From IMG/VR virus record IMGVR_UViG_3300042507_007364, positions 1 to 56,652 of that record: a DNA stretch of 56,652 nt. One strand, 5' to 3'. How positions within the stretch are numbered: the stretch's first letter is position 1; every line of letters begins with the position of its first letter. Below the pieces are notes generated by a model. That model searched no databases. It was not told where the DNA came from and saw only the letters and a program-made list of their open reading frames with translations. This document shows, piece after piece, positions 10,735 through 51,869 of the stretch. A program made the position numbers and the translations under genes. Origin of the DNA: a virus.

Positions 10735-11406
10735 TCACACGTAGTCTATAATACACGAAAGGTTCATAGTTGATTGTTGAAAAGTTTTAGCTGGAGTAAG
10801 ACTCAGGCAAATATACCAGTCATGTCTAGTTGAATACGACAAGCTTCCTGTAGGATTTGAACCACTTACTCCTGGGCTTGTTCTGAGTACTATAGACCCA
10901 GTAGACCCTGCTGGCATTGAAGACCAAGAAGCTGCTCCAGACCCTGGTGCTGTTTCGTCGGTGCTTGTGTGTACGCACTCGTACCACTTGAAGTCGTAAA
11001 ATGAAGTTGATGTTCCAGTCGAAGAACCGTCATTTATATACATTCTGCAGCTAGAGACTCGTATGGATGATAAATCAGAAACCCTTAGATTTAGTGGCGC
11101 AGCTCTATTTGGTATATAGTTTACATTTATATCCTTATACGAACCAAGCTCTGGGCTTATTACGTCTGCCGTTGATGACGTTTCGTACACCGAGTTATTT
11201 ATTTCTTCAGCGACAGCCGTTTTGTCACCAGGAGAAATAAATGTTTTTCCCTGGTACTCTCCAACTTTTTGGAAAATTATTGAATTTTTGGCATCAACTG
11301 CGCCAAAACCAAGAGCCGTTGAAAATGAAGAAAAGTACTTGCTTGACGATCCAATAAGTACATTTTTTGCGCTGCCAAATTGTCCATAAAGACCAATAAT
11401 TGGCAT
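10735..11406 (-). CDS. Virion surface or tail-tip protein, paralogue of the next gene
   Basis: 223 residues from the ATG at 11,406, which overlaps the upstream stop (TAATG); a longer frame to 11,481 exists but lies inside the upstream gene. It is beta-rich and aligns along its length with the product of 11,406-12,050: VGEYQGKTF vs IGEYQDRTF, YIPNRAAPLNLR vs NIPNYKSTLNIR, SPGVSG vs SPGISG, and HDWYICLS vs HDWYVCIS. The pair thus arose by duplication. Position after hub and fibre-like genes suggests a tail-tip or receptor-binding role; no sequence motif proves it. Confidence 0.62.
   Translation of the reverse strand: MPIIGLYGQFGSAKNVLIGSSSKYFSSFSTALGFGAVDAKNSIIFQKVGEYQGKTFISPGDKTAVAEEINNSVYETSSTADVISPELGSYKDINVNYIPNRAAPLNLRVSDLSSIRVSSCRMYINDGSSTGTSTSFYDFKWYECVHTSTDETAPGSGAASWSSMPAGSTGSIVLRTSPGVSGSNPTGSLSYSTRHDWYICLSLTPAKTFQQSTMNLSCIIDYV
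10751..10756 (-). promoter_or_regulatory. GTGTAT element, 23 nt before the XhlA-like gene
   Basis: GTGTATTAT in the end of the upstream coding region, followed by a GAGG ribosome site. Confidence 0.5.
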
Positions 11407-12050
11407 TATAGGTACTCTGTTGTAAAGTATATTCCAAACTGGGTGTGCGAACCTATTCCTGTTGGTGAAGCTGAAATACAAACGTACCAGTCGTGTTGCG
11501 CTTCTGTTGTATTTGATCCAGATACTCTTATGCCACTTATTCCTGGGCTTGCTATTAAGTCAACGTATGGTGTTGATCCACTGCAGGAAATCCAAGACGA
11601 GTCGCCTGAGCCAACAACTGCTTGGGAGACCTCTGGATGAACTATCTCGGCTACTTGGCATATTACACCAGATGGCCCATTATTAACATTTGATCTATCG
11701 TAAATCTGAACTTTCGCATTTTGTGTACGAACAGCAGAACCATGATCAAATCTAATGTTCAGTGTTGATTTGTAGTTTGGTATATTTACAAGTGGCAAAG
11801 AAGCATCTGTAGTGCCACCTCTGCTTATTAGAGCGCCTGTAGCGTTTACATATTTTACGTTATCTATTTCTGCACCAACAGCAGTGCCGTTTGCGTCGCA
11901 TACAAATGTTCTGTCTTGGTATTCACCAATCCTGACGCTAGCAAAAGCGCCACCATTTCCAAAAAAACCTATTCCAGAGCCATTTAAATTTTGGCTTCCG
12001 CTATTTATTGCGCCTATGCCTTCGTTAGCGTAAAAAGTGACTGTTGCCAT
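11406..12050 (-). CDS. Virion surface or tail-tip protein, paralogue of the previous gene
   Basis: 214 residues, beta-rich and Gly/Ser-rich (GSGIGFFGNGG near residue 25), with the conserved blocks IGEYQDRTF, NIPNYKSTLNIR, SPGISG and HDWYVCIS shared with its duplicate. It has its own GTGTAT element exactly 8 nt before the ATG and no Shine-Dalgarno, so a leaderless mRNA is predicted. The stop codon of the upstream gene is part of that element. Likely a structural protein; exact role unknown. Confidence 0.62.
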   Translation of the reverse strand: MATVTFYANEGIGAINSGSQNLNGSGIGFFGNGGAFASVRIGEYQDRTFVCDANGTAVGAEIDNVKYVNATGALISRGGTTDASLPLVNIPNYKSTLNIRFDHGSAVRTQNAKVQIYDRSNVNNGPSGVICQVAEIVHPEVSQAVVGSGDSSWISCSGSTPYVDLIASPGISGIRVSGSNTTEAQHDWYVCISASPTGIGSHTQFGIYFTTEYL

Positions 12051-12056
12051 ACTGTA

Positions 12057-13433
12057 TTATACACCAGGTCTTGGAGTATTAGCAGATCCGTATTCCATTG
12101 GTGATTGAGTTGTGTGTCCGTAGAAAGGCCAAACTCCGCTTGCGCACCCGCCATCGTGAGCGTTTTCTACTTGAAAATAGTATATTGGTCCGTATGTGCT
12201 TGTGCCGTTTGGTGAGGGGAGTCTTCGGGCTTCCACAATCGTACCACTACAGACTGGCTGAACTGCAAAACCTTTAGGATATGCGGACTTTGTACCTCCT
12301 GTGAATGCTATCCCCCCAGGAACTCCATCCGGCCAAACGTTTGCTGCTGTTATTGTGTTTCCAGTGGCGGTAACAATTCCCGGACATACCAAGCCTCGTT
12401 TACCAGGCGGATTACCAATTTCTATAAGATTTATGCATTGAACTTTTCTGTATTGAATTGGTATGGTTTCGTCTTCAACAAAAGAACCAAAGGGGGTTGA
12501 GAATCTTCTATCTGACGGAATGTCTCTACCACCGCTAAACTGAACTATAACTCCTTGATAAATCCATCTAGTCGGCATTCGCGCCGCCTGATTGTAGTTT
12601 GGTTCGTTACCAAGCGGAGACGCATCACCCTCAGAAAGTGGTCCGGGATAAGTTCCATCGTACCCTAGTATTTTTATAAAGACACTATTGTATCCAGCCT
12701 GTTCAAAAATATAAAGCGGCTGATAATCATTAAGAGATGGATCATCACCGTTGTCTGCTTTAAGAACATTAATAGATCTCATCTGCACAATTGTGCCAGA
12801 CGGAATTTTATGATGAATTCTATCGTGTTGATTTGCGGAAGACTCAGCTAGATTTATTGCATAATTATTTATTTCGTTGCCAGACACATACGATCTTGCT
12901 GGGTATGGAAAATCAATTGTGTCTACTGGCATATTTTTTGTTGTTGGATCTGGAAGATTGATTTCATGTATTTCTATTTCTCTCCAGCCATATCTGTTGC
13001 AAAAAATACTATTGCCTGTCGAAACAACTCCAGTTATCTCTGCTAGGAAAAAATGATTTGTTCTCCAAAGCCCGTGTCTTGGGTCATATCTTACATCAAG
13101 CATTCCAGCCACGTGATGCGTTGGAAGAGACTCTCCACCGAGCGGAAACTTTGCGCCTCCTGCGTTTTTTGTTATAAACTTTGTCTGGCTGTAGTTTTTA
13201 GGGCTGCTTTCAACACCATTAAGTTCAGCTAGATTTACAGCCCCAGGAACAGGCCTTCCAAAAATATCGTATCCCCATCCAGCAATAGCTACTGGTCCAG
13301 CAAGGCCTATAAATCTTGCTGTAAATGGGTTTATTGTTCCAGGCTCACCACCTTGTGGAACTGGTCTGTTTCTTAAATTTGAAAGAGACGTATCTCCTGG
13401 TACTAGACCGTGTGTGTCCTTTGGTATTTCCAT
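12057..13433 (-). CDS. Structural protein of the tail tip region, unknown
   Basis: 458 residues, Pro/Gly-rich, no membrane segment or coiled coil. GPVAIAGWGYDIFGRPVP (near residue 55) and RTNHFFLAEITG precede repeated beta-type segments such as IVQMRSI, WIYQGVIVQF and YYFQVENA. It follows the hub-like gene by 1 nt (TAAAATG) and shares its operon. The position in siphovirus gene order (after the hub) fits a minor tail or fibre protein. I do not recognise a family. Confidence 0.55.
   Translation of the reverse strand: MEIPKDTHGLVPGDTSLSNLRNRPVPQGGEPGTINPFTARFIGLAGPVAIAGWGYDIFGRPVPGAVNLAELNGVESSPKNYSQTKFITKNAGGAKFPLGGESLPTHHVAGMLDVRYDPRHGLWRTNHFFLAEITGVVSTGNSIFCNRYGWREIEIHEINLPDPTTKNMPVDTIDFPYPARSYVSGNEINNYAINLAESSANQHDRIHHKIPSGTIVQMRSINVLKADNGDDPSLNDYQPLYIFEQAGYNSVFIKILGYDGTYPGPLSEGDASPLGNEPNYNQAARMPTRWIYQGVIVQFSGGRDIPSDRRFSTPFGSFVEDETIPIQYRKVQCINLIEIGNPPGKRGLVCPGIVTATGNTITAANVWPDGVPGGIAFTGGTKSAYPKGFAVQPVCSGTIVEARRLPSPNGTSTYGPIYYFQVENAHDGGCASGVWPFYGHTTQSPMEYGSANTPRPGV
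12059..12064 (-). promoter_or_regulatory. GTGTAT element, 8 nt before start 12,050 (leaderless class)
   Basis: GTGTATAAT then 8 nt then ATG, no ribosome site. The upstream gene's TAA stop lies within it. Confidence 0.62.
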
Positions 13434-13434
13434 T

Positions 13435-19078: not shown

Positions 19079-19084
19079 ATACAC
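19079..19084 (-). promoter_or_regulatory. GTGTAT element, 8 nt before start 19,070 (leaderless class)
   Basis: GTGTATAAA, 8-nt spacer, ATG; no ribosome site. Confidence 0.62.
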
Positions 19085-25420: not shown

Positions 25421-25426
25421 ATACAC
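25421..25426 (-). promoter_or_regulatory. GTGTAT element of tape measure gene, 19 nt spacer
   Basis: GTGTATTTA followed by AGAGGA and the GTG start (SD class). Confidence 0.6.
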
Positions 25427-26457: not shown

Positions 26458-27491
26458 TTTTTAACCTTCAAGTTGTTTTGTTGAATTTGAATATCAACCT
26501 GCACATCGGGCAGCTCATGTTCCTTTATTGCCCCCTTCGTCTCTAATTTCCTGTTTCTGCTTTGTATACTAGCGAGACCAAGAGGGGTATTCATTGATGA
26601 ATACACTTTTTGTGCGTCTTGGGGTGTTTGTGCAACTATAAATACTTCTTTTGCTGCTGCTATTTTTGGGTTTGTTGTAAATGCAGTCTTCTTTTTGTTT
26701 GTTTTGTTGTACTGTTCTTCAAACCACTTGTCTAGTGCCTCATCGTCGTCTATTACTGACCAATCTGGTCTTTCGTGACTTTCAAATACATTATCGTATA
26801 TGTTTGACCAGTAAGTCAAGTCTCTTTGCGACTTAGCCATGTCTGCAAGTGGTCTACCAAATAAATCGCCACCAGAATTACTATATGTTTTCCATATTGA
26901 TCTCCATGGCTCGGATCTAGCAATTTTTCGTATTTCTTTCTCTGAGTAGAAGTCTTTAAGGATTTCGCCAGTAAGGCAATTAATTAAATCTGCACTCATT
27001 TCTTCATCAAATTCTTTTTGGTCTTTCCACAAAAGCGCACCATTAAAGTATATTGAATATGGCAAAATAGAAGAGGCTTGATATTTTTTAAGTTGATAAT
27101 CTATGGTCTGCGTAAAGAAAGACATCTTTAATTCAAGAAGCTCTTTAAGCTTTGTCTCTGCCATTTTTTTTCTAGAGACAAGCATGTTTTTCTCTATAGT
27201 CTTGTACTCAAATTCTGGTAGTGATTTAGTTATTTCTCTTATTATTGTTTTTGTGTTTTCAAACTCTTTTTCTAGATCGTCACTCCAAAGGCCGTGCCTG
27301 TAGAGCAGCTCCTTTTCTTCTTCGCTAGATAAAAAACCGTCTTTCTTGAAGCGGTTTTCATTTATATTGGATGAGTTATAAATTCTTGAAGAAGTAATTA
27401 TTCCAGGCTGTCTAAATACGTATTGTTTGTCACCGCAATGAATACAAAATTCACCAGATATTATTGAGTAAACCAAGGAGTCGGATATCAC
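26454..27491 (-). CDS. Conserved-type tail assembly protein with N-terminal CxxC
   Basis: 345 residues from the GTG at 27,491; the open frame extends to 27,551 but those codons cross the terminator hairpin, so the later start is preferred. TATACT lies 6 nt before this GTG. The N-terminal FCIHCGD is a lone CxxC. The block EPWRSIWKTY ... LFGRPLADM ... QRDLTYWSNIYDNVFES ... VIDDDEALDKWFEEQ (residues 210-290) recurs in my memory of proteins of other long-tailed phages, usually beside the tail tube gene. Role likely in tail assembly; biochemical function unknown. Confidence 0.55.
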   Translation of the reverse strand: MISDSLVYSIISGEFCIHCGDKQYVFRQPGIITSSRIYNSSNINENRFKKDGFLSSEEEKELLYRHGLWSDDLEKEFENTKTIIREITKSLPEFEYKTIEKNMLVSRKKMAETKLKELLELKMSFFTQTIDYQLKKYQASSILPYSIYFNGALLWKDQKEFDEEMSADLINCLTGEILKDFYSEKEIRKIARSEPWRSIWKTYSNSGGDLFGRPLADMAKSQRDLTYWSNIYDNVFESHERPDWSVIDDDEALDKWFEEQYNKTNKKKTAFTTNPKIAAAKEVFIVAQTPQDAQKVYSSMNTPLGLASIQSRNRKLETKGAIKEHELPDVQVDIQIQQNNLKVKK

Positions 27492-28735: not shown

Positions 28736-28741
28736 ATACAC
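28736..28741 (-). promoter_or_regulatory. GTGTAT element of tail tube gene, 24 nt spacer
   Basis: GTGTATTAT followed by GGAGA and ATG (SD class). Confidence 0.6.
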
Positions 28742-31188: not shown

Positions 31189-31190
31189 TT

Positions 31191-31718: not shown

Positions 31719-31721
31719 TTT

Positions 31722-32204: not shown

Positions 32205-32221
32205 TTTTTCCTCTATTTTAG

Positions 32222-32227
32222 ATACAC
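32222..32227 (-). promoter_or_regulatory. GTGTAT element before gene 31,722-32,204, 17 nt spacer
   Basis: Lies directly after the capsid terminator; GAGGA follows (SD class). Confidence 0.62.
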
Positions 32228-32230
32228 AAA

Positions 32231-32260
32231 TAAAAATCCCGCCCCAAACGGAGCGGGATT
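32231..32260 (-). terminator. Intrinsic terminator after major capsid gene
   Basis: Minus-strand AATCCCGC pairs with GCGGGATT (8 bp), followed by TTTTTAT. It lies about 25 nt after the capsid stop and directly before the GTGTAT element of the next gene, isolating the capsid transcript. Confidence 0.88.
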
Positions 32261-32283
32261 CTTAGTATTTGCGTTACTGTAAA

Positions 32284-33348: not shown

Positions 33349-33390
33349 TTTATACCTATTTCTTTTGTTTTTATTCAGCTTTTAACTCAA

Positions 33391-33942
33391 TCATAGATCA
33401 ACGTAAACCTTGGCGTAACCGTCCTCGTCAACCTTGGAGAGGAACTTACCGATTACGTAAGAGCCAGAAGCGCTGTTAAGCATTGAGCGTGAAAGCGCGT
33501 CGCCAGCTCCAGGAGCCATATGGAGAGTACCAGATGCAACGCTAGTAATGAAGCCGCTTGGCCCAGTGAAAGCTGGGGCGCCAGGAACTACAGTTACGCT
33601 GTTTGCGCCCATAGTAGTTACGACTCTGTTGGTGACTACATAGCCCTTCTTAAGGACTGTAATCTTGTCACCTACCTGAACCTCGCTCTTGTATGGGTTG
33701 AGGATCTGTCTGGTAAGGTCGATGTTTACTACGTCGTTTAGAAGAATGCCTAGCGGACGAACGCCTGTCGCGTTTAGGCCGTACCAAACTTGGTTAGCGG
33801 CTTGGTCCATAGCGGCACCAGAAGCAACGGTTGAGCCAGTTGCGCTGACCCAGCCGCCACGCTCGCTACCATAACCAATACCAGTAGCCCAGAAATAAGA
33901 GATGTCTACGTCGAGTTCGTTTCTATCAGGTTTTAATGCCAT
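33391..33942 (-). CDS. Capsid decoration / head-stabilising protein
   Basis: 183 residues, beta-rich. ATGIGYGSERGGWV, GVRPLGILLNDVVNIDLTRQ and VQVGDKITVLKKGYVVTN suggest a small SH3- or OB-like barrel, common among capsid decoration proteins encoded beside the capsid gene. GC3 is raised as in the capsid gene. GTGTAT lies 20 nt upstream, followed by AAGGG. Its transcript probably continues into the capsid gene, which lacks its own element. Confidence 0.62.
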   Translation of the reverse strand: MALKPDRNELDVDISYFWATGIGYGSERGGWVSATGSTVASGAAMDQAANQVWYGLNATGVRPLGILLNDVVNIDLTRQILNPYKSEVQVGDKITVLKKGYVVTNRVVTTMGANSVTVVPGAPAFTGPSGFITSVASGTLHMAPGAGDALSRSMLNSASGSYVIGKFLSKVDEDGYAKVYVDL

Positions 33943-33962
33943 TTTTTTACCCTTGTTATGTT

Positions 33963-33968
33963 ATACAC
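33963..33968 (-). promoter_or_regulatory. GTGTAT element of decoration/capsid operon, 20 nt spacer
   Basis: GTGTATAAC then AAGGG then ATG (SD class). Likely drives decoration and capsid genes. Confidence 0.62.
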
Positions 33969-33988
33969 AAATTAAAAATTTGCTTTAA

Positions 33989-34486
33989 TTATTTTCTACG
34001 TAGCGCATGAGCTATGAGATTTTTCGCCACGTCGGCCTTGTTTTCACGCTTGGTCGCTACTACAAAATTCGGAGTTTGGGACTGTTGTTTCTTTGCTGCC
34101 GCAATTGCCTGTGAAGCCTTTGCGACGATTTCTTGCTCTGTGATTACCTTTTCAATCTTGTTGCTTACTTTGCTTACAGCCTTTCTTAGCTCAGCAAACG
34201 CCTCTTCTGACATGGCCTTAAGCTCTGGAAGGTCTTCTTCTGTGTAGCTTTCACCAACCATCTCTCGCATTTCGGCAAGTCTGTCAGCGCCTACTTTGTT
34301 TTCGTAGGCTTGATCAATAAGTTGTTCTGCTTGTGTCTTGAAGTCTTCTAGTTCTTCTAGACGGGCAAGCTTAAGGTTCATGTTTTCAATATGAGTTGTA
34401 GCCAAAGCAATTGCTTGTTCGGCGTAAACTAATTGTTCTTTAAGATCAAGAACCTCGTTATCGTTTTTTGTATTAGTGTCTGACAT
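33989..34486 (-). CDS. Nested scaffold protein, in-frame internal start
   Basis: 165 residues identical to the C-terminus of the protease fusion, starting at an internal ATG (MSDTNTKNDNEVLDLKEQ). The start is preceded by GAGGA at good distance and by GTGTAT 18 nt upstream, the same arrangement as at independent late genes. The protein is almost entirely coiled coil (LDLKEQLVYAEQAIAL onwards) and ends in a basic tail (AHALRRK), as scaffolds that bind capsid protein do. Lambda C/Nu3 is the precedent for a scaffold nested in a protease gene. Confidence 0.75.
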   Translation of the reverse strand: MSDTNTKNDNEVLDLKEQLVYAEQAIALATTHIENMNLKLARLEELEDFKTQAEQLIDQAYENKVGADRLAEMREMVGESYTEEDLPELKAMSEEAFAELRKAVSKVSNKIEKVITEQEIVAKASQAIAAAKKQQSQTPNFVVATKRENKADVAKNLIAHALRRK

Positions 34487-35911
34487 TTTTTCCTCTTTGT
34501 TTTTATACACAAAATTATTTTTATTTTCTAAACTACTGTCTTTTTTGTTTGCTTGGCTTAAAGCGTTCTCACCAGCAGATCCTGGAGCTGGTGCTGATTG
34601 CTCAGATGATGGCCCACTTTGGTCTTGTTGTGGATTAAAAGTGCCCTCTTGAATATCGCCAGAATCGCCCTCTGGTTTGTCTATATAATAGGAAGTTTCG
34701 GATTCTTGGGAAATGCCAAGTTCTTTTAGAACAAAACGAAGCTCGCGCTCGTCCTCGCATGGCCGATACTGTGGTATTGCCATCTGCTTTTCAAGATCTG
34801 TTGGGTCAGCCATTAAAGCAGAGTAAAGAAGCGGCTTATCGCCGTGTCTGTCTTCCTGATAAAGGTGGTATCCAGTGCAGCCAAGCTTTATTTTGCCAAC
34901 GCTTTCGGCTTCTTTTGCTGTAAAAAACAAGAATCCATCAGCTGGTGGCTTAAATGAAGTTGGCATTTCTCTTTTATTTTTTAAATCTTGAGGGGTGTCT
35001 GTTCTAGAAACGTTCGAAGTATCGTCTGGCATTTCTGCTGGATTTAGTATTGAACCAGGCTCCTGAACGGTTGATATTGGCGAGTTTGCATTCATAATAT
35101 CCTGTGGTGTTTGGGCAAAAATTATGCTGTATATTTTGTTCTTCTTTTTATTTGCTGGCTCGTAAACGACGCCCTGTCCAGAAAAAGTTATGTTTTTTAG
35201 CCATCTTCCAATCTGATATCTTTGGCCTTTGTATTGGGTTGTGCCCTTGCCGCCAAAGGCTAGAAGGTCTTTTGACATTTTTGAGTTTGCGTCAGATCTG
35301 TCAAGGAATATTATTTCGGAATCTTCGTCTTTTCTTAGAGCGTATCCAAAATCTTCAAAGAAACATTCCATTGAAACGAAAAGCTTGCCGTCTTGAATGC
35401 CCTTTTTGATTTTTTCAGCGTATGTTGGAAAATAGCCAGACCAAATTATACCGTCTTGTTTAACGTGTATTTTCCCGCTGCAAGAGCGTGGGTTTTTGCA
35501 AGACGATTCGTCGGCTTTAATTATGTTAACTTCTGGAACGTCTCCTTCAACAAGTGTGGTCTCAAGCATAACCCCTATGTTTTCATTTTCGGTGTCCTCG
35601 GAACCCTTGTGCATCCAATTGATTGGTTTAAATTTCGCTGTTGAGTATCTTGAGAGTATTTCTTCGGATGTAAAAACGTCGTCGTTTGCGTTCCATATGT
35701 CGCTAACAAGTATTGATGATAGAGTTGTTACATCATCGGTTGGCTTATAGCCATTTGGTGCAATTGAGGCGATTGCGCAAGCGTTGCCCTTGCAGACATT
35801 ATTAAGAGAATCTGTTTTTACAGAAATGTCTGTGACCAGAGTTGAGTCACACTTTGTTTTGTTATTAACTAAAAGTGAAGCTATTTCTTTTTCGCCTTCA
35901 AAGACTTTCAT
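33989..35911 (-). CDS. Head maturation protease fused to scaffold
   Basis: 640 residues. N-terminal half: a serine-protease-like prohead protease, with KPINWMHKG (candidate catalytic His near residue 100) and KLFVSMECFFEDFGYAL (candidate catalytic Ser near residue 180), the H-then-SME order typical of phage maturation proteases. A Pro/Ser/Gln-rich linker spans about 270-450. C-terminal 165 residues: coiled-coil scaffold. GTGTAT lies exactly 8 nt before the ATG without a Shine-Dalgarno (leaderless prediction). Proteolysis of scaffold and capsid arms would occur in the prohead. Confidence 0.78.
   Translation of the reverse strand: MKVFEGEKEIASLLVNNKTKCDSTLVTDISVKTDSLNNVCKGNACAIASIAPNGYKPTDDVTTLSSILVSDIWNANDDVFTSEEILSRYSTAKFKPINWMHKGSEDTENENIGVMLETTLVEGDVPEVNIIKADESSCKNPRSCSGKIHVKQDGIIWSGYFPTYAEKIKKGIQDGKLFVSMECFFEDFGYALRKDEDSEIIFLDRSDANSKMSKDLLAFGGKGTTQYKGQRYQIGRWLKNITFSGQGVVYEPANKKKNKIYSIIFAQTPQDIMNANSPISTVQEPGSILNPAEMPDDTSNVSRTDTPQDLKNKREMPTSFKPPADGFLFFTAKEAESVGKIKLGCTGYHLYQEDRHGDKPLLYSALMADPTDLEKQMAIPQYRPCEDERELRFVLKELGISQESETSYYIDKPEGDSGDIQEGTFNPQQDQSGPSSEQSAPAPGSAGENALSQANKKDSSLENKNNFVYKNKEEKMSDTNTKNDNEVLDLKEQLVYAEQAIALATTHIENMNLKLARLEELEDFKTQAEQLIDQAYENKVGADRLAEMREMVGESYTEEDLPELKAMSEEAFAELRKAVSKVSNKIEKVITEQEIVAKASQAIAAAKKQQSQTPNFVVATKRENKADVAKNLIAHALRRK
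34505..34510 (-). promoter_or_regulatory. GTGTAT element inside protease gene, drives nested scaffold
   Basis: GTGTATAAA 18 nt before the internal ATG at 34,486 with GAGGA between. It is embedded in coding sequence, so its presence is not explained by being intergenic. Confidence 0.65.
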
Positions 35912-35919
35912 GTTTTAAT

Positions 35920-35925
35920 ATACAC
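35920..35925 (-). promoter_or_regulatory. GTGTAT element of protease gene, 8 nt spacer
   Basis: GTGTATATT, 8 nt, ATG; no ribosome site (leaderless class). Confidence 0.62.
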
Positions 35926-35949
35926 ATTAGTTTTAAAGAGTAAAAGTTC

Positions 35950-35955
35950 TATAAT
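35950..35955 (+). promoter_or_regulatory. TATAAT element, 5 nt before start 35,961
   Basis: Divergent from the protease element. TTCTAT is 8 nt from the ATG, the same geometry as GTGTAT sites, but the hexamer is the host-type TATAAT. Confidence 0.55.
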
Positions 35956-35960
35956 ATTTC

Positions 35961-36614
35961 ATGCACGCAAACTCGCCAGTTATAAAAGTTTTCATAAAAA
36001 ACGATTTCTTGTACGACATGGAAGAAAAGGAAGGCTTTACTGAAGGTCATGTTTTTGGTGTTAGGTCAATGCGAGCAAGAAGTTTGCTTTTTCATGTAAT
36101 GCTTAAAACTGGAGCGCACTGGCGTGGTCTTCCACTTCATTCAATGTGGTGGTACGAGCCAGAAGAAGGCTCCGAGCACTACAGCCTTGAGAATTTGCAG
36201 CTATGGGATTGCTTTACTGAAAAAATACAAATAATACAGTGGGACTATTTGCTTGGTCACCAGTGCGACTGTTTTTTAAGAAACAGAAAGGTGGTACAAG
36301 GAGAGTATTGGTTTACGGTTGAATGGCTAAAAGACGAAAACCCAGATACATCATTTGTTTACACTCCCGATCAAGATAAATGTGCTCATATAATAAAATT
36401 AGATAACGGTCAAATTGCCGCCCTTCCAACAAATAGAATAGCCTTTAAGGATGCCTATTTCATTGGAAACAAACCAAATCCTGGGGCTAAGGGGTATAGG
36501 GTATCTTCTAAGGTGTGGAGTGCCGAAACTTGTGATAGGTGGTCTGTTTCAGAGGAAAATGGTGTATTTTATTTAGATGAAGAAGAAAAAGAATGCAATC
36601 CGCAACAAGAATAA
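35961..36614 (+). CDS. Hypothetical phage protein
   Basis: 217 residues, rich in Trp and Cys (HSMWWYEPEEG, LQLWDCFTEKIQIIQWDYLLGHQCDC). FRNRKVV-type and EYWFTVEW blocks follow, ending in an acidic tail. No family recognised by function. TATAAT lies 5 nt before the ATG with no Shine-Dalgarno, so a leaderless mRNA is predicted. It is transcribed divergently from the protease gene. Confidence 0.6.
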   Translation: MHANSPVIKVFIKNDFLYDMEEKEGFTEGHVFGVRSMRARSLLFHVMLKTGAHWRGLPLHSMWWYEPEEGSEHYSLENLQLWDCFTEKIQIIQWDYLLGHQCDCFLRNRKVVQGEYWFTVEWLKDENPDTSFVYTPDQDKCAHIIKLDNGQIAALPTNRIAFKDAYFIGNKPNPGAKGYRVSSKVWSAETCDRWSVSEENGVFYLDEEEKECNPQQE

Positions 36615-36825
36615 AAAACCTACTGAGGCTGAGTTTTATTACTTTTGCGCGTTTTTGGAATCAGACGGAGACGTTTATCCGCTTCTTTTGACTAGAAACG
36701 AGCTAAAAAGAGCAAAATCAAGAGCTGTGAAAAATAAAGAAGACGTGCCTTCTGAGTTTTTGGTTTTTCAGTACTCTGGCGGAACATTGAAGAAATTAAA
36801 CAGTGAAAGCTTGAATAAGTCATAA
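36577..36825 (+). CDS. Small basic hypothetical protein
   Basis: 82 residues; overlaps the end of the preceding gene by 38 bp in another frame. Lys-rich start (MKKKKNAIRNKNKKPTEAEF) followed by FYYFCAFLESDGDVYPLLLT and a short helix. Probably translated by coupling. No family recognised. The 45 nt after it contain no obvious terminator, only GC-rich sequence before the convergent gene. Confidence 0.5.
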   Translation: MKKKKNAIRNKNKKPTEAEFYYFCAFLESDGDVYPLLLTRNELKRAKSRAVKNKEDVPSEFLVFQYSGGTLKKLNSESLNKS

Positions 36826-36870
36826 AAGCAGGCGCGTACATCCTAGGCCCGCCGAATACTAATCAAGCTC

Positions 36871-37170
36871 TCACGTGTTGTCTTCCTTTTTGTCTTCTAG
36901 TTCGTCTTTTACGTCACCATCATCACAAAGGAGTGGCTTTCTTATAAACTCTCTATACGCCCAAAGCAAGGCTATTAGTGCAACTGGCGCGTACCAAAAA
37001 AGCCAACCGTAGCCAGTTGTGTCTGTAGACTGGTGCTCTATAGATTTTTTAATAGAGAGCATAACGGCACTATCTCCAGTTGTGTCTGGAATAATCTTTG
37101 GTGTTGTGTCGCAGCCAAAAAGAGAAACCGTAAAAAACAATGGCCATATTATTTTAGACATAAATTTCAT
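36871..37170 (-). CDS. Small lipoprotein with one transmembrane segment
   Basis: 99 residues. A signal peptide (residues 1-19) ends in the lipobox LFGC with Cys20 as the lipid site; a second hydrophobic segment (54-72, WLFWYAPVALIALLWAY) is followed by a charged 26-residue tail. A lipoprotein plus a C-terminal membrane anchor recalls unimolecular spanins, but only about 33 residues separate them, too few to cross a periplasm. A membrane-bound lysis accessory is likely because the holin-like gene is next and overlaps by 4 bp. Confidence 0.58.
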   Translation of the reverse strand: MKFMSKIIWPLFFTVSLFGCDTTPKIIPDTTGDSAVMLSIKKSIEHQSTDTTGYGWLFWYAPVALIALLWAYREFIRKPLLCDDGDVKDELEDKKEDNT

Positions 37171-37601
37171 GACTTCCTCGCTGCTGCAGATGTGCCAAAG
37201 TAAAATCCAACTATGCTGAGTAATATTTGTCGATTTTCTGATGAGTATAAAAACCCGTTTACCTCAACAAAAAATTTCTTGCTAGTTTCTGGAATTATGC
37301 CAAAAAGACCCTCTGGATTTGTTGCGTCAACTTCAACAAATGTTGGTACTCCAAAAAATGGAAGTATAAAAGGTGCTGCTATAGAACCAAAAAGAACAGT
37401 TAAGACAATAAGCTGTCTAACGCCCTTTCCTACGTCTATTGGAACTCTTTTAGCGGCCTGGTCTTGATTTGAGGTTGTTTGCTTGTTCGCCTCAATTACT
37501 CTTTCAAAGAGTTCTTTTTCGTCCTGCCTTTTTTCGGCTAGGTAGCGAAAAATAAACCCCAAAGTGCTACCACCAATCATTGATAAAAGCTCAATTGGCA
37601 T
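37167..37601 (-). CDS. Holin-like three-segment membrane protein
   Basis: 144 residues with hydrophobic segments at about 4-20, 64-86 (LIVLTVLFGSIAAPFILPFFGV) and 124-140 (ILLSIVGFYFGTSAA). The GFYFGTSAA ending is common in a phage holin-like family. Holins form the lesion that releases endolysin or depolarises the membrane. It has its own promoter element (17 nt) and GAGG site, allowing separate timing from the portal operon. Confidence 0.6.
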   Translation of the reverse strand: MPIELLSMIGGSTLGFIFRYLAEKRQDEKELFERVIEANKQTTSNQDQAAKRVPIDVGKGVRQLIVLTVLFGSIAAPFILPFFGVPTFVEVDATNPEGLFGIIPETSKKFFVEVNGFLYSSENRQILLSIVGFYFGTSAAARKS

Positions 37602-37618: not shown

Positions 37619-37624
37619 ATACAC
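37619..37624 (-). promoter_or_regulatory. GTGTAT element of holin-like gene, 17 nt spacer
   Basis: GTGTATTAG followed by GAGG and ATG (SD class). Confidence 0.6.
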
Positions 37625-39308: not shown

Positions 39309-39314
39309 ATACAC
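39309..39314 (-). promoter_or_regulatory. GTGTAT element of portal gene, 26 nt spacer
   Basis: Overlaps the last base of the terminase stop codon; weak ribosome site (TAGG) follows. Confidence 0.5.
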
Positions 39315-41284: not shown

Positions 41285-41828
41285 TTTTAACCTCTCCTAG
41301 AATTGATCTAAAGATGTTGCACGCGTATCTTCTTGCAAAATATTTATTGCTTAGAAAAAGCGTTTTGATTCCCCACTTATGATCAATCTCTGAAATCCTT
41401 GAAAGAACAAAATCTGGAGGCAGCGTAAAATACATTCCTTTTTTAGGGTTTCTTCCCATGTACTTTGCGTAAGCGTCATGTAGGTCGTCTTCAACTATTA
41501 TGAGTGGCTTTGCATACTTTTGTAGTCCATCTAGTTCTCTTTGAAATCTCTCCCAGTTTTTTCCTATATTTCCTAGAAGCTCCTCAACAGACGCTTTTCT
41601 TTCAATAATTATACTGTTTTTGAACTCGGGCATATCATAGCCCTCTAGCGTATAATCACCGTACTCTAGATTTTTAACCAAAACGTTTTTTACAAAGAAT
41701 TTAGATGGCAGCTTTTCTGAAAAATCCCACGGTTTTTTTTCTTGGTTGTCAATGATAACGCTTGCGTATATAGCGCTCTCTACTGTTTTTTTGGCCTTCT
41801 TTAAGGAACCCTTGTTTCCTGAGTTCAT
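41259..41828 (-). CDS. ERCC4-type nuclease
   Basis: 189 residues. The signature GDY...IIIERKAS (around residues 57-80) is that of the XPF/ERCC4 nuclease core, followed by ELLGNIGKNWERFQRELDGL and the strand PLIIVEDDL. No HhH domain is present, so it is a minimal version. Family members cut branched or flapped DNA. It starts 80 nt inside the upstream HNH gene and ends inside the terminase gene. Placement between HNH and terminase suggests trimming of packaging substrate, an inference only. Confidence 0.82.
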   Translation of the reverse strand: MNSGNKGSLKKAKKTVESAIYASVIIDNQEKKPWDFSEKLPSKFFVKNVLVKNLEYGDYTLEGYDMPEFKNSIIIERKASVEELLGNIGKNWERFQRELDGLQKYAKPLIIVEDDLHDAYAKYMGRNPKKGMYFTLPPDFVLSRISEIDHKWGIKTLFLSNKYFARRYACNIFRSILGEVKNDTEPRVS

Positions 41829-42147
41829 TTATCCTCTGTATTTCTTCGGTGTTTTTTTGACAAATAATTTTGAAAAACTCCGATTCAAACTGCTCTTCTT
41901 TCCCTGTTACTAGCTCATGATGTTTTTTGCAAAGAGTTATTCCATTGAATTTCTCTGTTCTTAGCCTTGCCGAGTTTGCATATTTTTTTATATGATGTAC
42001 CTCAAGTCCTCTTTTTTCGCAACATCCTGGAAATTGGCATGAAAACTCATCTCTTTTTAGAACCTCTTTTCTGAAACGCCAATACTCTGGTGAGTATCTA
42101 CCGTCTCTACGCCTGAACTTTGGTTTCCTCAGCCTTTTCTTTGCCAC
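41749..42147 (-). CDS. HNH endonuclease
   Basis: 132 residues, GTG start. HNH core: CQFPGC (37-42), LEVHHIKKY (catalytic His51-His52), N68 in FNGI, and LCKKHH (73-77) completing the zinc site. HNH proteins beside terminase genes are needed for genome cutting in several phages. GTGTAT lies 9 nt before the GTG with no ribosome site. The N-terminus overlaps the dehydratase gene's end by 41 bp. Confidence 0.85.
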   Translation of the reverse strand: MAKKRLRKPKFRRRDGRYSPEYWRFRKEVLKRDEFSCQFPGCCEKRGLEVHHIKKYANSARLRTEKFNGITLCKKHHELVTGKEEQFESEFFKIICQKNTEEIQRINELRKQGFLKEGQKNSRERYIRKRYH

Positions 42148-43129
42148 CGTTATTTAATACACTTTGGGCATAATTAATACTGTAATCGTGCTTGTACATC
42201 TCGTAAAGAAGGTCTCTCCACGTGTACTCTGGTTGCCATCCAAGCTCTCTTTTAATCTTTGATGGATCGCCACAAAGAACGTTTACCTCTAGCGGACGAT
42301 TAAATGATGGGTTTATTTTGCAAGCATCTTCTGGGTTAATATCTGCTAATCCGCAAACATAATGAAGTGCGTCTTTAATTGATATAGTTTCTCCAGTCGC
42401 AACAACATAATCGCTTGGCGTTTGCGCCTGAAGCATCATCCACATCGCCTTAACATAATCTTTCGCATGACCCCAGTCTCTTTTGGCGGCAAGATTTCCA
42501 AGCTCAATTGGACCAGAAAGGCCAAGTTTATATCTAGCTATGCCGTTTGTTATCTTTCTAGTAACAAAATCAAAGCCTCTTCTTGGGCTTTCGTGATTGA
42601 ATAGTATTCCGCAGCACGCATAAATGCCATAAGACTTTCGGTAAATATCAACCATGTTGTGTGCGTACATTTTTGCTGCTGAATAAGGGCTACGTGGAAC
42701 GAAAGGCGTATTTTCAGATTGATTTTCAGTTACGCCACCAAACATCTCAGATGTAGATGCTTGGTAAAATCTTGTGTGTGGCGAGTGCTTTGCTATTGCT
42801 TCTAAAACTATTGTTACAGCAGTACCATTAACGTATGCACAAGATATTGGTTCTTTAAAGCTTTGACCAACGTGAGACATTGCTGCGAGGTTGTAATACT
42901 CGTCTGGTCTTATATGAGATATAATGCTAAATATCCCAGAAGCGTCTGTGATGTCTAGATTTATTTGATGGAAGTTTGAGTTTTTTTCTGCCTCAACCAT
43001 ATTAGAGGCGTTTTTCTCGGTTGAGCTTCTTCTGTATATTCCGTATACTTTGTATCCTTTGCTTAGCAAAAGCTCTGTCAAATATGAGGCGTCTTGACCT
43101 GGGCAACCTGTTACTATTGCTGTTTTCAT
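42107..43129 (-). CDS. gmd: GDP-mannose 4,6-dehydratase
   Basis: 340 residues, full length for the family. Rossmann NAD(P) motif TGCPGQDASYL (7-17), catalytic region STSEMFG (T126, E128), YSAAK (Y149, K153), then the family-specific NHESPRRG and LGNLAAKRDWGHAKDY. It converts GDP-mannose to GDP-4-keto-6-deoxymannose, the precursor of GDP-fucose, GDP-rhamnose or GDP-perosamine. It supplies an activated sugar, plausibly to the glycosyltransferases at 2.7-8.1 kb. It sits in the packaging operon, overlapping neighbours at both ends. Confidence 0.95.
   Translation of the reverse strand: MKTAIVTGCPGQDASYLTELLLSKGYKVYGIYRRSSTEKNASNMVEAEKNSNFHQINLDITDASGIFSIISHIRPDEYYNLAAMSHVGQSFKEPISCAYVNGTAVTIVLEAIAKHSPHTRFYQASTSEMFGGVTENQSENTPFVPRSPYSAAKMYAHNMVDIYRKSYGIYACCGILFNHESPRRGFDFVTRKITNGIARYKLGLSGPIELGNLAAKRDWGHAKDYVKAMWMMLQAQTPSDYVVATGETISIKDALHYVCGLADINPEDACKINPSFNRPLEVNVLCGDPSKIKRELGWQPEYTWRDLLYEMYKHDYSINYAQSVLNNGGKEKAEETKVQA
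42157..42162 (-). promoter_or_regulatory. GTGTAT element of HNH gene, 9 nt spacer
   Basis: Lies within the C-terminal codons of the dehydratase gene; no ribosome site before the GTG start. Confidence 0.55.
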
Positions 43130-43968
43130 TGTTGTTCTCTTGTTTTCTTTACTGTTTCCGAATCTAGTAATTGCGGAGCTAGTTCCCCGTCCATATATTC
43201 TATGGCGTTACGCATGCTGTCTTGTTTCTTTTCCATAGAAAGCCGAAGTAGTTCTGCCATGCGACCCTCTTTTTCCCTTGTCTGCATAGATTCAAACTTT
43301 TTACAAAGGGAGAAGAAGGTGTCCCCACCCACTTTTCCTTTTTCTTCTCTTTGGCGTCTAGTTGCATTAAGTGTTTCGTTTAGCTTTGTAGATTTTTCTA
43401 ATAAATCTTTGTACTCTTTATTTAAGTCTGTTGCCCGCATAGACGCATTGAATATTTTTTGATATAGCTCAGCCTGTTTTGGGTCTGACAGATCTAAATC
43501 CTTGACATCAACAATGTCATTGTTTGCCATAAGAGAGTCACGTATTCTCATGGCGTCATAATAGTCTTTTTGGTTTTTATCTATTCTTAGCTTTAAAAAA
43601 ATTAGCTGCTCAACAGTGTTTTGCTCTGTGTGGGTGAGATCTTCGAGCTGAATTTTATAATTTGCCCATTCTTCGGAGAATAAAATCCAGTCTTCTTCCG
43701 GTAGTTGTTTTTTTATTCTTGACCCTCTTGGGCTTGTTTCAAATGAACGAACGTGAAAATCAAATATATCTCTGTTTTGATAATCTTTTCTTTGTTCTAT
43801 CATCACAACCGGATCTTTGGTTGTGTTTTTCATCATGCCAATACTTTTTCTGTAGCGCTCCACAGTTTTTATTGAACAGCCGATATGTTTTGCTATATCA
43901 GCGTCTGTTTTGTATTTGCAGTTATTTTCTATGTATATCTTGTCAGCTTCTTCAATTCGTTTTGCCAT
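43126..43968 (-). CDS. Probable terminase small subunit
   Basis: 280 residues. The N-terminal helix-turn-helix (TDADIAKHIGCSIKTVERYRK, residues 20-42) is followed by a long charged helical region with coiled-coil potential. The layout (DNA-binding head, oligomerising helices) and position in the terminase operon match small terminases, which recognise viral DNA for packaging. The large subunit lies three genes downstream. Another possibility is a sigma-linked regulator, because it overlaps the sigma gene by 17 bp. Confidence 0.6.
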   Translation of the reverse strand: MAKRIEEADKIYIENNCKYKTDADIAKHIGCSIKTVERYRKSIGMMKNTTKDPVVMIEQRKDYQNRDIFDFHVRSFETSPRGSRIKKQLPEEDWILFSEEWANYKIQLEDLTHTEQNTVEQLIFLKLRIDKNQKDYYDAMRIRDSLMANNDIVDVKDLDLSDPKQAELYQKIFNASMRATDLNKEYKDLLEKSTKLNETLNATRRQREEKGKVGGDTFFSLCKKFESMQTREKEGRMAELLRLSMEKKQDSMRNAIEYMDGELAPQLLDSETVKKTREQQ

Positions 43969-44548
43969 CTCGCCACTCCCCCATTATTTGTGTTATTTCT
44001 AAACGAAGCTTATTTTTATAATATGAATTCACTGGTTCTTCGGAAAGACAAGCCCTGTATATTTCAAGCCCCTCCTCAGATAGCCTAGCCTCAACAAAGT
44101 CTTTCAGCTCCCCAAAAACAACTGAGTTTTCTGTTTCGTTTTTACAAGTCGCTGGCTCGTATGCAACAGAGTCGTCTTTTGAGTTTCTTGCTTTTGCGCT
44201 AAGCGAAACTCTAGCCTTTTTGTGTTGTTCATTTAAACTACCACAATGGTCTCTATAAAAGTTTTTAAGTCTATTTTTGACAACCCTGTTGAGCCAACGC
44301 TCAAGCGAATTTATGTCGTCCCAACCAATGCCTTTTTCTGGTTCGTAAAACTTTAACTGCTGCATGCAAATAAGACGGGCTTGTGAAGCTATATCTTCTA
44401 CTGTCATGTAAGCAAACGTTTTGCCCATGTGGGTTTGGGCTATTTTTTCAACTAATGACAAAACCTCGTCTCTTGAGATTTTCGCCCCAGATGTTTTTGA
44501 TATTTTTTTCAAAAAGATTGCGACTGCGTCTTTCTGAGGTCTTTTCAC
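43952..44548 (-). CDS. Phage RNA polymerase sigma factor
   Basis: 198 residues, GTG start. Residues 51-100 match sigma region 2: EDIASQARLICMQQLKFYEPEKG and then LERWLNRVVKNRLKNFYRD, the core-binding helix and the -10 recognition helix. No convincing region 4 (HTH for -35) is visible, as in T4 gp55-type late sigma factors. It would redirect host RNA polymerase to -10-only promoters; GTGTAT sites across this phage are the obvious candidates. Its own start lies 5 nt after a TATAAT (8 nt after GTCTAT), suggesting a leaderless message read by host sigma. Confidence 0.72.
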   Translation of the reverse strand: MKRPQKDAVAIFLKKISKTSGAKISRDEVLSLVEKIAQTHMGKTFAYMTVEDIASQARLICMQQLKFYEPEKGIGWDDINSLERWLNRVVKNRLKNFYRDHCGSLNEQHKKARVSLSAKARNSKDDSVAYEPATCKNETENSVVFGELKDFVEARLSEEGLEIYRACLSEEPVNSYYKNKLRLEITQIMGEWRDGKTN

Positions 44549-44553: not shown

Positions 44554-44559
44554 ATTATA
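44554..44559 (-). promoter_or_regulatory. TATAAT element of sigma factor gene, 5 nt spacer
   Basis: GTCTATAAT on the minus strand; GTCTAT is 8 nt from the GTG start. A perfect -10 consensus suggests use of host sigma for the phage sigma gene. Confidence 0.6.
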
Positions 44560-44569: not shown

Positions 44570-44575
44570 GTGTAT
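44570..44575 (+). promoter_or_regulatory. GTGTAT element of Myb-like gene, 18 nt spacer
   Basis: Divergent to the sigma promoter, about 10 bp away; followed by AGGAG (SD class). Confidence 0.6.
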
Positions 44576-45639: not shown

Positions 45640-45645
45640 GTGTAT
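45640..45645 (+). promoter_or_regulatory. GTGTAT element of hydrolase gene, 8 nt spacer
   Basis: GTGTATAAG, 8 nt, GTG start; no ribosome site (leaderless class). Confidence 0.62.
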
Positions 45646-46811: not shown

Positions 46812-47114
46812 TCAGGCCGGTGTGGAATAGATTTCGTCAAGAACCCTAGTGTAGCAATATTGCGTATGTGGAATAGGTGTGCTAGGATCATGACAGCAAC
46901 GCGATAGAATGCTTGGGTCTTCTTCCATCGCTTGGAGCGCCCAGTGACAATTCCAACCATAGTGACCAAACCTGTTTGTTGGGACTGGTGCTGGTTTATA
47001 TTTTTTTCTTGGGGTTGATTCAAGTGGCATATTAGGTTCATCAAATCGCGTAAATTGTTGATTAGCCGCTTGAATTACCTGGGTTAGTTTTTGAATTGAT
47101 TTTTCTAATGACAT
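46812..47114 (-). CDS. Small leader-bearing protein, first MSLEK cassette
   Basis: 100 residues. The first 19 residues (SLEKSIQKLTQVIQAANQ) are nearly the same as those of the product of 47,192-47,515; the rest is unrelated. The body is Pro-rich, then carries four Cys (WNCHW, SRCCHD, YCYTR) and aromatic residues. GTGTAT lies 21 nt upstream with TAGGA in between. Conserved head with variable body is what one expects of a targeting leader on different cargoes. No family recognised for the body. Confidence 0.6.
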   Translation of the reverse strand: MSLEKSIQKLTQVIQAANQQFTRFDEPNMPLESTPRKKYKPAPVPTNRFGHYGWNCHWALQAMEEDPSILSRCCHDPSTPIPHTQYCYTRVLDEIYSTPA

Positions 47115-47135: not shown

Positions 47136-47141
47136 ATACAC
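47136..47141 (-). promoter_or_regulatory. GTGTAT element of first MSLEK gene, 21 nt spacer
   Basis: GTGTATAAT with TAGGA before the ATG (SD class). Confidence 0.6.
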
Positions 47142-47148: not shown

Positions 47149-47173
47149 AACCCGCCATCACTGGCGGGTTTTT
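47149..47173 (+). terminator. Second copy of the AACCCGCC hairpin
   Basis: AACCCGCC / GGCGGGTT, 8 bp with a 6-nt loop, the same sequence as the 46,769 hairpin but for one loop-closing base. The better T-run is on the plus strand, yet it lies at the end of a minus-strand gene, just before the promoter element of the next one. Copying together with the cassette is likely. Confidence 0.6.
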
Positions 47174-47533: not shown

Positions 47534-47539
47534 ATACAC
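47534..47539 (-). promoter_or_regulatory. GTGTAT element of second MSLEK gene, 18 nt spacer
   Basis: GTGTATAAA with AAGGA before the ATG (SD class). Its position rules against the longer reading frame start at 47,539. Confidence 0.6.
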
Positions 47540-49280: not shown

Positions 49281-49290
49281 ACAGGTATTA

Positions 49291-49296
49291 ATACAC
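49291..49296 (-). promoter_or_regulatory. GTGTAT element of gene 48,597-49,280, 10 nt spacer
   Basis: GTGTATTAA, 10 nt, ATG; no ribosome site. Confidence 0.58.
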
Positions 49297-49316
49297 TGAA
49301 TATTTTTTATTTTAAA

Positions 49317-49322
49317 GTGTAT
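49317..49322 (+). promoter_or_regulatory. GTGTAT element of membrane protein gene A, 8 nt spacer
   Basis: GTGTATCTT, 8 nt, ATG; 20 bp from the divergent minus-strand element. Confidence 0.62.
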
Positions 49323-49330
49323 CTTAAGCC

Positions 49331-50161: not shown

Positions 50162-50164
50162 AAA

Positions 50165-51190: not shown

Positions 51191-51196
51191 GGGCTT

Positions 51197-51202
51197 GTGT
51201 AT
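51197..51202 (+). promoter_or_regulatory. GTGTAT element before gene 51,211, 8 nt spacer
   Basis: GTGTATTTA, 8 nt, ATG; no ribosome site. Confidence 0.62.
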
Positions 51203-51210
51203 TTACAAAT

Positions 51211-51858
51211 ATGGAAAACTTCTCGCAAGGTGCAGAGTGGACAACGCGTTATAAAAATGATCTCCCTGACAGTGCTTTTCTTTATATTGAGGCTGGCGGC
51301 AAAAGGGACTCCGAGGGGAAAATCAAGCCTCGTTCGCTGCGACACTTTCCGTACAAGGACGCGGACGGCAAAGTTGACCGCGCGCACATTCTTAATGCGA
51401 TTTCGCGAATCCCACAGGCTAAATTCCTGTCTCAGGCTCAAAAGGACAGACTGCAAGCACGGGCAAGGAAAATATATCTTAAGTTTGTAAAGTACAACAG
51501 CAAAAAGGCAAACTCGTTTATTGATATTTTAAACAAGCTGTCCGCCGCCGTTGGCGCTTCTGAAAGAATGCAGCTTCGAATGGATGGGCCAGCAGGAAAA
51601 ATGGACTCGTATGCCGTAGAGGTTTACGATAACATGATTATGGTGTACTCTGACAACGAGTGTGTCATGAAAAAGATAGGTAAAAGAGGAGACTTGAAGC
51701 CGGATTTTTTACGTTATTTAAATGCCCAAGTGGCGGACCTCCGAAAAAACAACCCAATTTGGGGCGAGTGGGAAATTAAAACAGCATTACAGTCTTTGGC
51801 ACACCAGTGGATTGAGCGTTATGCACGAGACTGCTTTGGTGGTACTGTATTAGCATAA
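51211..51858 (+). CDS. Two-domain phage protein with internal leader-like segment
   Basis: 215 residues. The N-terminal domain (1-90) has a pattern found on diverse phage proteins: LPDSAFLYIEAGGK, RSLRHFPYKDADGKVD, then HILNAISRIPQA and a basic helix. Residues 102-117 (SFIDILNKLSAAVGAS) match the leader consensus, here internal rather than terminal. The C-terminal domain is helical with WGEWEIK. GTGTAT is 8 nt before the ATG, no ribosome site. Confidence 0.6.
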   Translation: MENFSQGAEWTTRYKNDLPDSAFLYIEAGGKRDSEGKIKPRSLRHFPYKDADGKVDRAHILNAISRIPQAKFLSQAQKDRLQARARKIYLKFVKYNSKKANSFIDILNKLSAAVGASERMQLRMDGPAGKMDSYAVEVYDNMIMVYSDNECVMKKIGKRGDLKPDFLRYLNAQVADLRKNNPIWGEWEIKTALQSLAHQWIERYARDCFGGTVLA

Positions 51859-51863
51859 AAGCC

Positions 51864-51869
51864 TATAAT
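51864..51869 (+). promoter_or_regulatory. TATAAT element of HNH homing gene, 5 nt spacer
   Basis: TATAAT ends 5 nt before the GTG start; no ribosome site. Same leaderless geometry as the sigma gene. Confidence 0.55.

Follow-up and report, generated by a model that had tools for sequence, protein, structure and literature searches.

Single-element promoters without a -35 box are known from phage phiEco32, in which gp36, a phage sigma factor without region 4, serves middle and late promoters of the form tAATGTAtA and transcription starts 6-8 bp downstream (PMC8948821; the motif is also given in PMC4331800). In T4 late transcription (gp55/gp33/gp45), a sigma-domain-2 protein works with a single -10-like element and no -35 (PMC7892883). 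Leaderless transcripts have been described as well: most of the later mRNA of the Thermus phage phiYS40 is without leaders (PMC3594737), phage transcripts are often leaderless according to a paper on AR9 (PMC5312081), and in Deinococcus-Thermus a TANNNT -10 element near the open reading frame (ORF) yields leaderless mRNA (PMC12340547). Here, the hexamer GTGTAT is described, which very probably acts as a promoter in an uncultured phage of ~125 kb. It was studied in the IMG/VR virus record IMGVR_UViG_3300042507_007364, whose entire 56,652 bases are called the window, and in related contigs.

The GTGTAT system appears to be a variant of the known single-element phage promoter kind, with the gp36 promoters of phiEco32 as the nearest known, analogous system. 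Both would involve a phage protein of the sigma70 family and a single element without a -35, and TGTAtA is common to the phiEco32 motif and GTGTATA. The two differ in that six promoters are named for phiEco32 versus ~30 genes per genome here, and the word leaderless is missing from PMC8948821. GTGTAT itself was not in excess in a 23-kb stretch of phiEco32 (6 found, 9.75 expected). In contrast to phiYS40, one element would serve leaderless as well as leadered genes here, and orthologues swap between the two. Among open-licence papers, the sole match for a phage GTGTAT promoter was a listed -35 of C. glutamicum ilvE, which is unrelated. No paper on this combination of promoter and leaderless start was seen among the matches listed from the same literature, which is not proof of absence.

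The relatives were recruited via the terminase and the capsid-like protein of the window (32284-33348, a match under the cut-off). Because they reach 125,471 (G001), 121,997 (G002) and 122,608 (G003) bases, the window, which shares a 45.7-kb alignment of 96% with G001, is probably a fragment of a larger genome. Five close-clade sets were compared (G001, G002, G005, G007 with G009, and the window), and distant relatives were reached through terminase-like (G011-G013, 36-38%) or capsid-like (G014, 40%) loci. Genes were called with an own codon-usage caller that is blind to upstream sequence. A megablast of window positions 20000-42000 returned no near relative among GenBank phages, and the terminase matches there were 23.9-26.5% identical (best 25 of 37 records).

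GTGTAT was found 31 times on both strands of the window, compared to 18.6 copies (standard deviation 4.2) in dinucleotide shuffles, none of 100 of which reached 31. An initial annotation of this DNA had reported 19 sense copies 8-26 nucleotides (nt) before start codons. This was borne out for 19 of the 31 copies, counted with 57 called genes and three hand-added ORFs, two of which are relevant (41749-42147 and 46812-47114). With the own caller alone and a 40-nt upstream zone, the motif preceded 17 of 56 window starts with 0.5 expected. The further expectation that it is confined to gene starts did not hold, as 12 of the 31 copies lie elsewhere by the same gene list. GTGTAT led all hexamers of the 40-nt zone ahead of called starts in each of the five close-clade sets (log10 P -16 to -31). 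It stood before 29 of 160 starts in G001 (1.0 expected, log10 P -30.8), 30 of 160 in G002 (1.5 expected), 16 of 99 in G005 (0.7 expected) and 26 of 88 in G007 with G009 (0.7 expected). A genome-wide count had been proposed as a way to refute the motif; in this count, it stayed enriched before starts. The complete arrangement GTGTATN8ATG was counted 10 times in G001, 9 in G002, 10 in G003, 6 in G005 and 5 in G007, with 0, 1, 1, 0 and 2 counts for the reversed control. It occurred at least once in 15 of 16 records, with merely 1-2 copies each in G012-G014.

The motif was also retained between orthologues. G001 genes that carry GTGTAT within 46 nt were followed through their reciprocal best hits, and other hexamers from the same stretches served as controls. 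All 27 sites were kept in G002 (137 pairs; control hexamers 27%) and all 14 in G007 (47 pairs; 16%), followed by 9 of 10 in G009 (33 pairs; 5%), 11 of 17 in G005 (72 pairs; 5%) and 9 of 14 in G008 (42 pairs; 7%). Conversely, GTGTAT was present in the relative and missing in G001 for a single gene in each of G002, G008 and G012. Within the window, 16 of the 19 upstream sites could be aligned to at least one relative, and GTGTAT was intact in each aligned copy; three had no alignable relative. These alignments are not independent, as L083 is part of G007 (one contig counted twice) and other contigs are close to one another. Of the 12 non-upstream sites, eight were altered in all aligning relatives, while 34510, 26606 and 56564 (the last with one relative) were intact wherever aligned and 35465 was intact in some.

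That GTGTAT is missing from the distant relatives was considered and rejected. It is weak there, where it precedes 9 of 158 genes with 1.05 expected (22 loci, not de-duplicated) and has a GGnGTATA form, and it is rarer and mostly farther from the start. The top upstream hexamers of G011-G014 were Shine-Dalgarno-like, in G011 weakly so. A longer form of the motif, ~TTTTGGTGTATAATA, was seen in L079, G012 and G013, which are intermediate or distant, mostly 24-57 nt before the start.

The distance between motif and start codon is bimodal, as the initial annotation had stated. Among 114 upstream sites in six contigs, 60 had a spacing of 12 nt or less (33 of them exactly 8 nt) and 54 one of 15 nt or more, 51 of which fell at 15-27 nt; none was found at 13-14 nt. 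In the window, all eight short-class starts named before were present (six at 8 nt, 42147 at 9 nt and 49280 at 10 nt), and one more, 36577, was added. The upstream sites of the window are as follows, the short class first:
12059-12064, minus strand: putative GTGTAT promoter, 8 nt to ATG 12050; also TATAAT-N5; spacing 8 in G001 and in the orthologues of G002, G005, G007, G008 and G009
19079-19084, minus strand: putative GTGTAT promoter, 8 nt to ATG 19070; 8 nt in G001, G002 and G007, none in G005, G008 and G009
35920-35925, minus strand: putative GTGTAT promoter, 8 nt to ATG 35911 of a 640-aa gene
45640-45645, plus strand: putative GTGTAT promoter, 8 nt to GTG 45654
49317-49322, plus strand: putative GTGTAT promoter, 8 nt to ATG 49331
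51197-51202, plus strand: putative GTGTAT promoter, 8 nt to ATG 51211
36562-36567, plus strand: putative GTGTAT promoter, 9 nt to ATG 36577
42157-42162, minus strand: GTGTAT, 9 nt to GTG 42147; within the 3' end of gene 42107-43129; hand-added ORF, doubtful
49291-49296, minus strand: putative GTGTAT promoter, 10 nt to ATG 49280
10751-10756, minus strand: putative GTGTAT promoter, 23 nt to ATG 10727
25421-25426, minus strand: putative GTGTAT promoter, 19 nt to GTG 25401 of a 1903-aa gene of tape-measure size
28736-28741, minus strand: putative GTGTAT promoter, 24 nt to ATG 28711
32222-32227, minus strand: putative GTGTAT promoter, 17 nt to ATG 32204; 8, 7 and 8 nt in the best-hit orthologues of G005, G008 and G009
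33963-33968, minus strand: putative GTGTAT promoter, 20 nt to ATG 33942
37619-37624, minus strand: putative GTGTAT promoter, 17 nt to ATG 37601
39309-39314, minus strand: putative GTGTAT promoter, 26 nt to ATG 39282, portal
44570-44575, plus strand: putative GTGTAT promoter, 18 nt to ATG 44594
47136-47141, minus strand: putative GTGTAT promoter, 21 nt to ATG 47114, hand-added ORF
47534-47539, minus strand: putative GTGTAT promoter, 18 nt to ATG 47515

A purine stands in fixed register to the motif. Of the 54 long-class sites, 52 had an A or G at base 9 after the hexamer, compared to 44-80% purine at adjacent positions and 62% at base 9 of 93 non-upstream copies. After sites at least 60% alike were dropped, 38 of 39 still had the purine (P 1.7e-7 against neighbouring positions), and it was present in 16 of 20 sites with spacings of 9-12 nt. 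At a spacing of 8 nt, base 9 is the A of the ATG codon itself. It is taken to be the transcription start (+1); mRNAs of the 8-nt class would then have no leader, and those of the 9-11 class hardly any. The short class therefore very probably gives rise to leaderless or nearly leaderless mRNA; for the 8-nt class, as the initial annotation had proposed, enrichment, conservation, bimodal spacing and the purine in register argue for this on the level of the sequence. Shine-Dalgarno-like words were found before 38 of 54 long-class and 14 of 60 short-class starts, before 202 of 443 other genes and in 84 of 538 in-gene controls.

Orthologues can differ in their spacing class. The G001 gene 56859 has its motif at 17, 17 and 20 nt in G001, G002 and G007 and at 8, 7 and 8 nt in G005, G008 and G009, whose best-hit orthologues are 31-35% identical. 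For gene 53152, spacings of 8, 8, 15, 8, 8 and 17 nt were measured in G001, G002, G005, G007, G008 and G009, respectively, and gene 77010 kept 8 nt in all six contigs. One promoter would thus serve both layouts, and it is the distance to the start codon that changes.

The sequence information resides mostly in GTGTAT and its AT-rich flanks (logo), and no -35 word stood out among 83 de-duplicated sites in a word test. Sigma70-type bipartite promoters were not in excess either (39 found with 39.8 expected and 41 found with 37.4 expected). Each of the six contigs showed an enrichment of motif genes at transcription-unit heads (P below 0.004), for instance 18 of 53 unit heads compared to 11 of 106 internal genes in G001. 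A perfect GC-rich stem was present within 45 nt upstream of 6 of 114 sites, compared to 19 of 1800 random 45-mers. Two terminator-like hairpins precede sites in the window:
32231-32264, minus strand: terminator-like hairpin, ends 3 nt before GTGTAT 32222-32227
47149-47170, minus strand: terminator-like hairpin, ends 7 nt before GTGTAT 47136-47141
Together with enrichment, orthologue retention, the purine in register and the lack of a visible -35, these hairpins support the single-element, phage-wide promoter that had been suggested.

Four TATAAT or TATACT forms had been listed as versions of the same element, the TATAAT ones before the starts 35961, 44548 and 51875. TATAAT was indeed located exactly 5 nt from these starts with its TAT in the register of GTGTAT, while no TATACT of the window was in register; the nearest ones are 16 and 21 nt before TTG 27476. 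The sites are better read as a separate second class:
35950-35955, plus strand: TATAAT, 5 nt to ATG 35961; putative host-like leaderless class
44554-44559, minus strand: TATAAT, 5 nt to GTG 44548 of the sigma-like gene below; putative host-like leaderless class
51864-51869, plus strand: TATAAT, 5 nt to GTG 51875 of an HNH endonuclease
Of 443 genes without GTGTAT, 18 had TA[TC]A[AC]T at a distance of exactly 5 nt from the start, compared to a mean of 1.44 per offset at 9-40 nt (orthologues included), with minor bumps also at 16-21 nt. This TATAAT-N5 class resembles a host -10 element and predicts leaderless mRNA. Its fixed short distance to the start is similar to that of the TANNNT elements described for Deinococcus-Thermus, whose sequence it matches. 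The first of the three genes (35961-36614) is a ferredoxin-like phage gene (phrog_3704) that is divergent from a GTGTAT promoter.

Two phage proteins resemble polymerase subunits and could read GTGTAT. One of them, sigmaB, is encoded in the window:
43952-44548, minus strand: sigmaB, sigma-like gene with domain 2 and a putative shrunken domain 4; possible GTGTAT reader
SigmaB has 198 aa and was modelled from 17 sequences (predicted local distance difference test, pLDDT, 74). Its residues 25-102 superposed on sigma domain 2 (8dy9_F, Z 6.7, root-mean-square deviation (rmsd) 2.5, 72 aligned; VIA-align), and all of the best 50 rows were sigma-factor entries by title, T4 gp55 included. Modelled alone, the C-terminal 64 aa (pLDDT 87) formed three helices only; the top eight rows were sigma domain 4, with Z 6.8 and rmsd 3.4 over 62 aligned residues for 3hug_C and Z 6.7 and rmsd 2.2 over 60 for 9a7s_A. 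On these models, the C-terminus is read here as a domain 4 that lacks part of the helix-turn-helix. SigmaB thus seems to retain a shrunken domain 4, which differs from gp36 of phiEco32. Compared with the single gp36 sequence, hhalign gave a probability of 0.2% for sigmaB and 1.6% for sigmaA, the second protein; as sigmaA and sigmaB matched each other with only 0.9%, this low-power test misses sigma factors in general.

The T4 gp55 structure (7d7c_F) was among the neighbours of sigmaB with Z 6.2 and an rmsd of 6.2 over 89 residues, a poor fit, and hhalign detected no homology between the two in an equally low-power test. The late motif of T4, TATAAATA, is unlike GTGTAT, and the T4-late-type hexamers TATAAA, ATAAAT and TAAATA were not among the top 15 listed upstream hexamers of any close-clade set. 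SigmaB had no match in GenBank phages at E 0.01. As a possible split region 4 or gp33-like partner, the gene that follows it (43126-43968) was rejected, its match being weak (E 0.014; GerE at 0.075).

The following mechanism is proposed. The consensus would be ~WTnGTGTATWWWA-N4-(+1)purine with GTGTAT as sole conserved element and no -35. A phage sigma factor would redirect the host core polymerase to it, and RNA would begin 8 nt past the hexamer. A start codon at that position would give a leaderless mRNA, one at 9-11 nt a leader of 1-3 nt, and one at least 15 nt away a short leader in which a Shine-Dalgarno-like word is usually present. The reader would be sigmaB, for which the chances are even or slightly better. 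It is favoured because the promoters have no -35 and because partial sigmaB relatives (23-29% identity) coexist with weak GTGTAT sites, rarer upstream of genes, in the distant clade; neither point is decisive. SigmaB is preceded by TATAAT-N5-GTG in 7 of 13 and by TAAGAT-N5-GTG in 3 of 13 listed close loci (L031, L032 and L079 differ). With such a host-like promoter, the host enzyme would produce sigmaB first, and sigmaB would then open the GTGTAT genes. The whole chain, from promoter and start site via the leaderless short class to sigmaB and its early expression by the host enzyme, is given an even chance.

Several observations weigh against this chain. The six contigs hold 93 copies of GTGTAT without a called start downstream, compared to 114 upstream of starts, and the placement of the start site depends on a purine. 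Of the seven sites with a spacing of 7 nt or less (six at 7 nt, one at 3 nt), just one has a purine at base 9; these sites would call for RNA that starts one base closer to the motif, or for a misassigned start codon. Leaderless translation would require a permissive host. A genome scan for hosts yielded three distant terminases (35-36%) in metagenome-assembled genomes of differing phyla (Alphaproteobacteria, SAR202 and Gemmataceae), and Pfam names such as L5_gp82 are only a hint at an actinobacterial host. The Sigma70_r2 match of sigmaB is weak (17.5 bits with a cut-off of 24; E 1.7e-4 per genome and 0.0037 in the other scan). Foldseek of sigmaB against the PDB gave nothing at E 0.001 or below (best 0.028 for the whole model and 2.5 for the C-terminal part), its profile found chance-level matches only among PDB sequences (TFIID at E ~0.1), and its structural Z values are all below 8, where small helical parts could mislead. 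SigmaB relatives exist in the distant clade, where the motif is retained in 2 of 6 (G012) and 0 of 5 (G013) orthologues. Finally, a clearer sigma factor, sigmaA, is present in the same phages and above the Pfam cut-off.

SigmaA (G001 7142-7696, L088) lies outside the window and has clear regions 2 (r2) and 4 (r4), with r2 above the cut-off in G001-G003 and r4 in G001-G003 and G005. In GenBank phages it matched nine Lak-phage records (E 5e-3 to 6e-3). Its gene directly follows a tRNA-Arg in G002 and G005, and one called gene lies between them in G001. That sigmaA reads the same promoter is possible, though a good deal short of probable. It is encoded in contigs of L179 and L181-L183 and in G001, G002, G003 and G005; in the latter four, where the motif was looked for as well, both occur together. 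This co-occurrence is weak evidence, however, because an r2-bearing sigma is also encoded by each of the distant records G011-G013. SigmaA lacks GTGTAT in the preceding 300 nt in G001, G002 and G005, and the gene directly after it has one 9 nt upstream in all three. In G001, sigmaA sits within the first 37.5 kb, a motif-poor region (2 of 54 genes, compared to 27 of 106 in the rest; P 4e-4). Its region 4 is at odds with promoters that have no -35.

A reading without any phage factor, by which the host primary sigma recognises GTGTAT as a variant or extended -10, is rather improbable. TAT of GTGTAT and TATAAT stand in equal register to the start codon, and leaderless promoters with an adjacent -10 are known in bacteria (PMC12340547). 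However, of the 114 sites, 49 have a T and 48 an A at the third base past GTGTAT; the last T of TANNNT is not conserved, which sets these sites apart from the elements of Deinococcus-Thermus, and GTGTAT is therefore not a TANNNT element. In addition, GTG abuts TAT and is off register for the TGn of an extended -10, and the TATAAT sites form a separate class. GTGTAT might also work in RNA as an unusual ribosome-recruiting or leader signal, given its place close before start codons, but this is very improbable, since the long class is at least 15 nt away with a Shine-Dalgarno-like word in 38 of 54 sites, base 9 is a purine, hairpins lie directly upstream of two window sites and unit heads are preferred. 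Chance or composition, to which the 12 of 31 window copies not before a start could be ascribed, is negligible in view of the close-clade log10 P of -16 to -31 and an orthologue retention well above controls.

More tentatively, and somewhat below an even chance, it is suggested that the start is set 8 nt past the hexamer by a phage sigma with shrunken domain 4, and that the distance to the start codon serves the phage as an evolvable switch between leaderless and Shine-Dalgarno-led translation, gene by gene. The two classes possibly differ in timing or strength. From sequence alone, an uncultured phage lineage gains a promoter map that predicts exact starts and many leaderless mRNAs, and its natural orthologue pairs with leaderless and leadered layouts at the same promoter may tell when phages prefer which translation mode. 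The single-element promoter may be tied to a sigma factor with reduced domain 4.

Some non-upstream copies may be promoters as well. Site 34510 is conserved and lies 18 nt before an internal in-frame ATG, so that 20 of the 31 window copies may be promoters:
34505-34510, minus strand: putative GTGTAT promoter within gene 33989-35911, 18 nt to in-frame ATG 34486
33989-34486, minus strand: predicted nested in-frame 165-aa product
A scan of the six contigs for in-gene GTGTAT with an in-frame ATG gave eight matches, five of them at the equivalent place of the 640-aa gene (G001, G002, G005, G007 and G008; none in G009). Phage lambda has nested protease and scaffold genes (C/Nu3), which the predicted layout resembles. 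No family match was obtained here. Two further copies are kept in several relatives: 26601-26606 (minus strand) is in sense within a gene, with an ATG 6 nt further on that a hand count places in frame, and 35465-35470 (plus strand) is antisense in a gene. They could be internal promoters or reflect codon conservation.

Families assigned in the window comprise portal (phrog_2739), terminase (phrog_2), a PolB fragment, glycosyltransferases and an HNH nuclease. A stretch of ~60% GC in this phage of 40% GC covers 52396-56652 of the window and ~29500-37200 of G001, with few or no genes by the own caller. As it is internal in G001 and 98% identical there, it is the phage's own and not a joined host end. 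The glycosyltransferases are clustered at 2710-8146, and G001 encodes a TET-associated glycosyltransferase, Thy1, dUTPase and dNMP kinase (L092, L093); given these genes, the phage DNA possibly carries modified bases.

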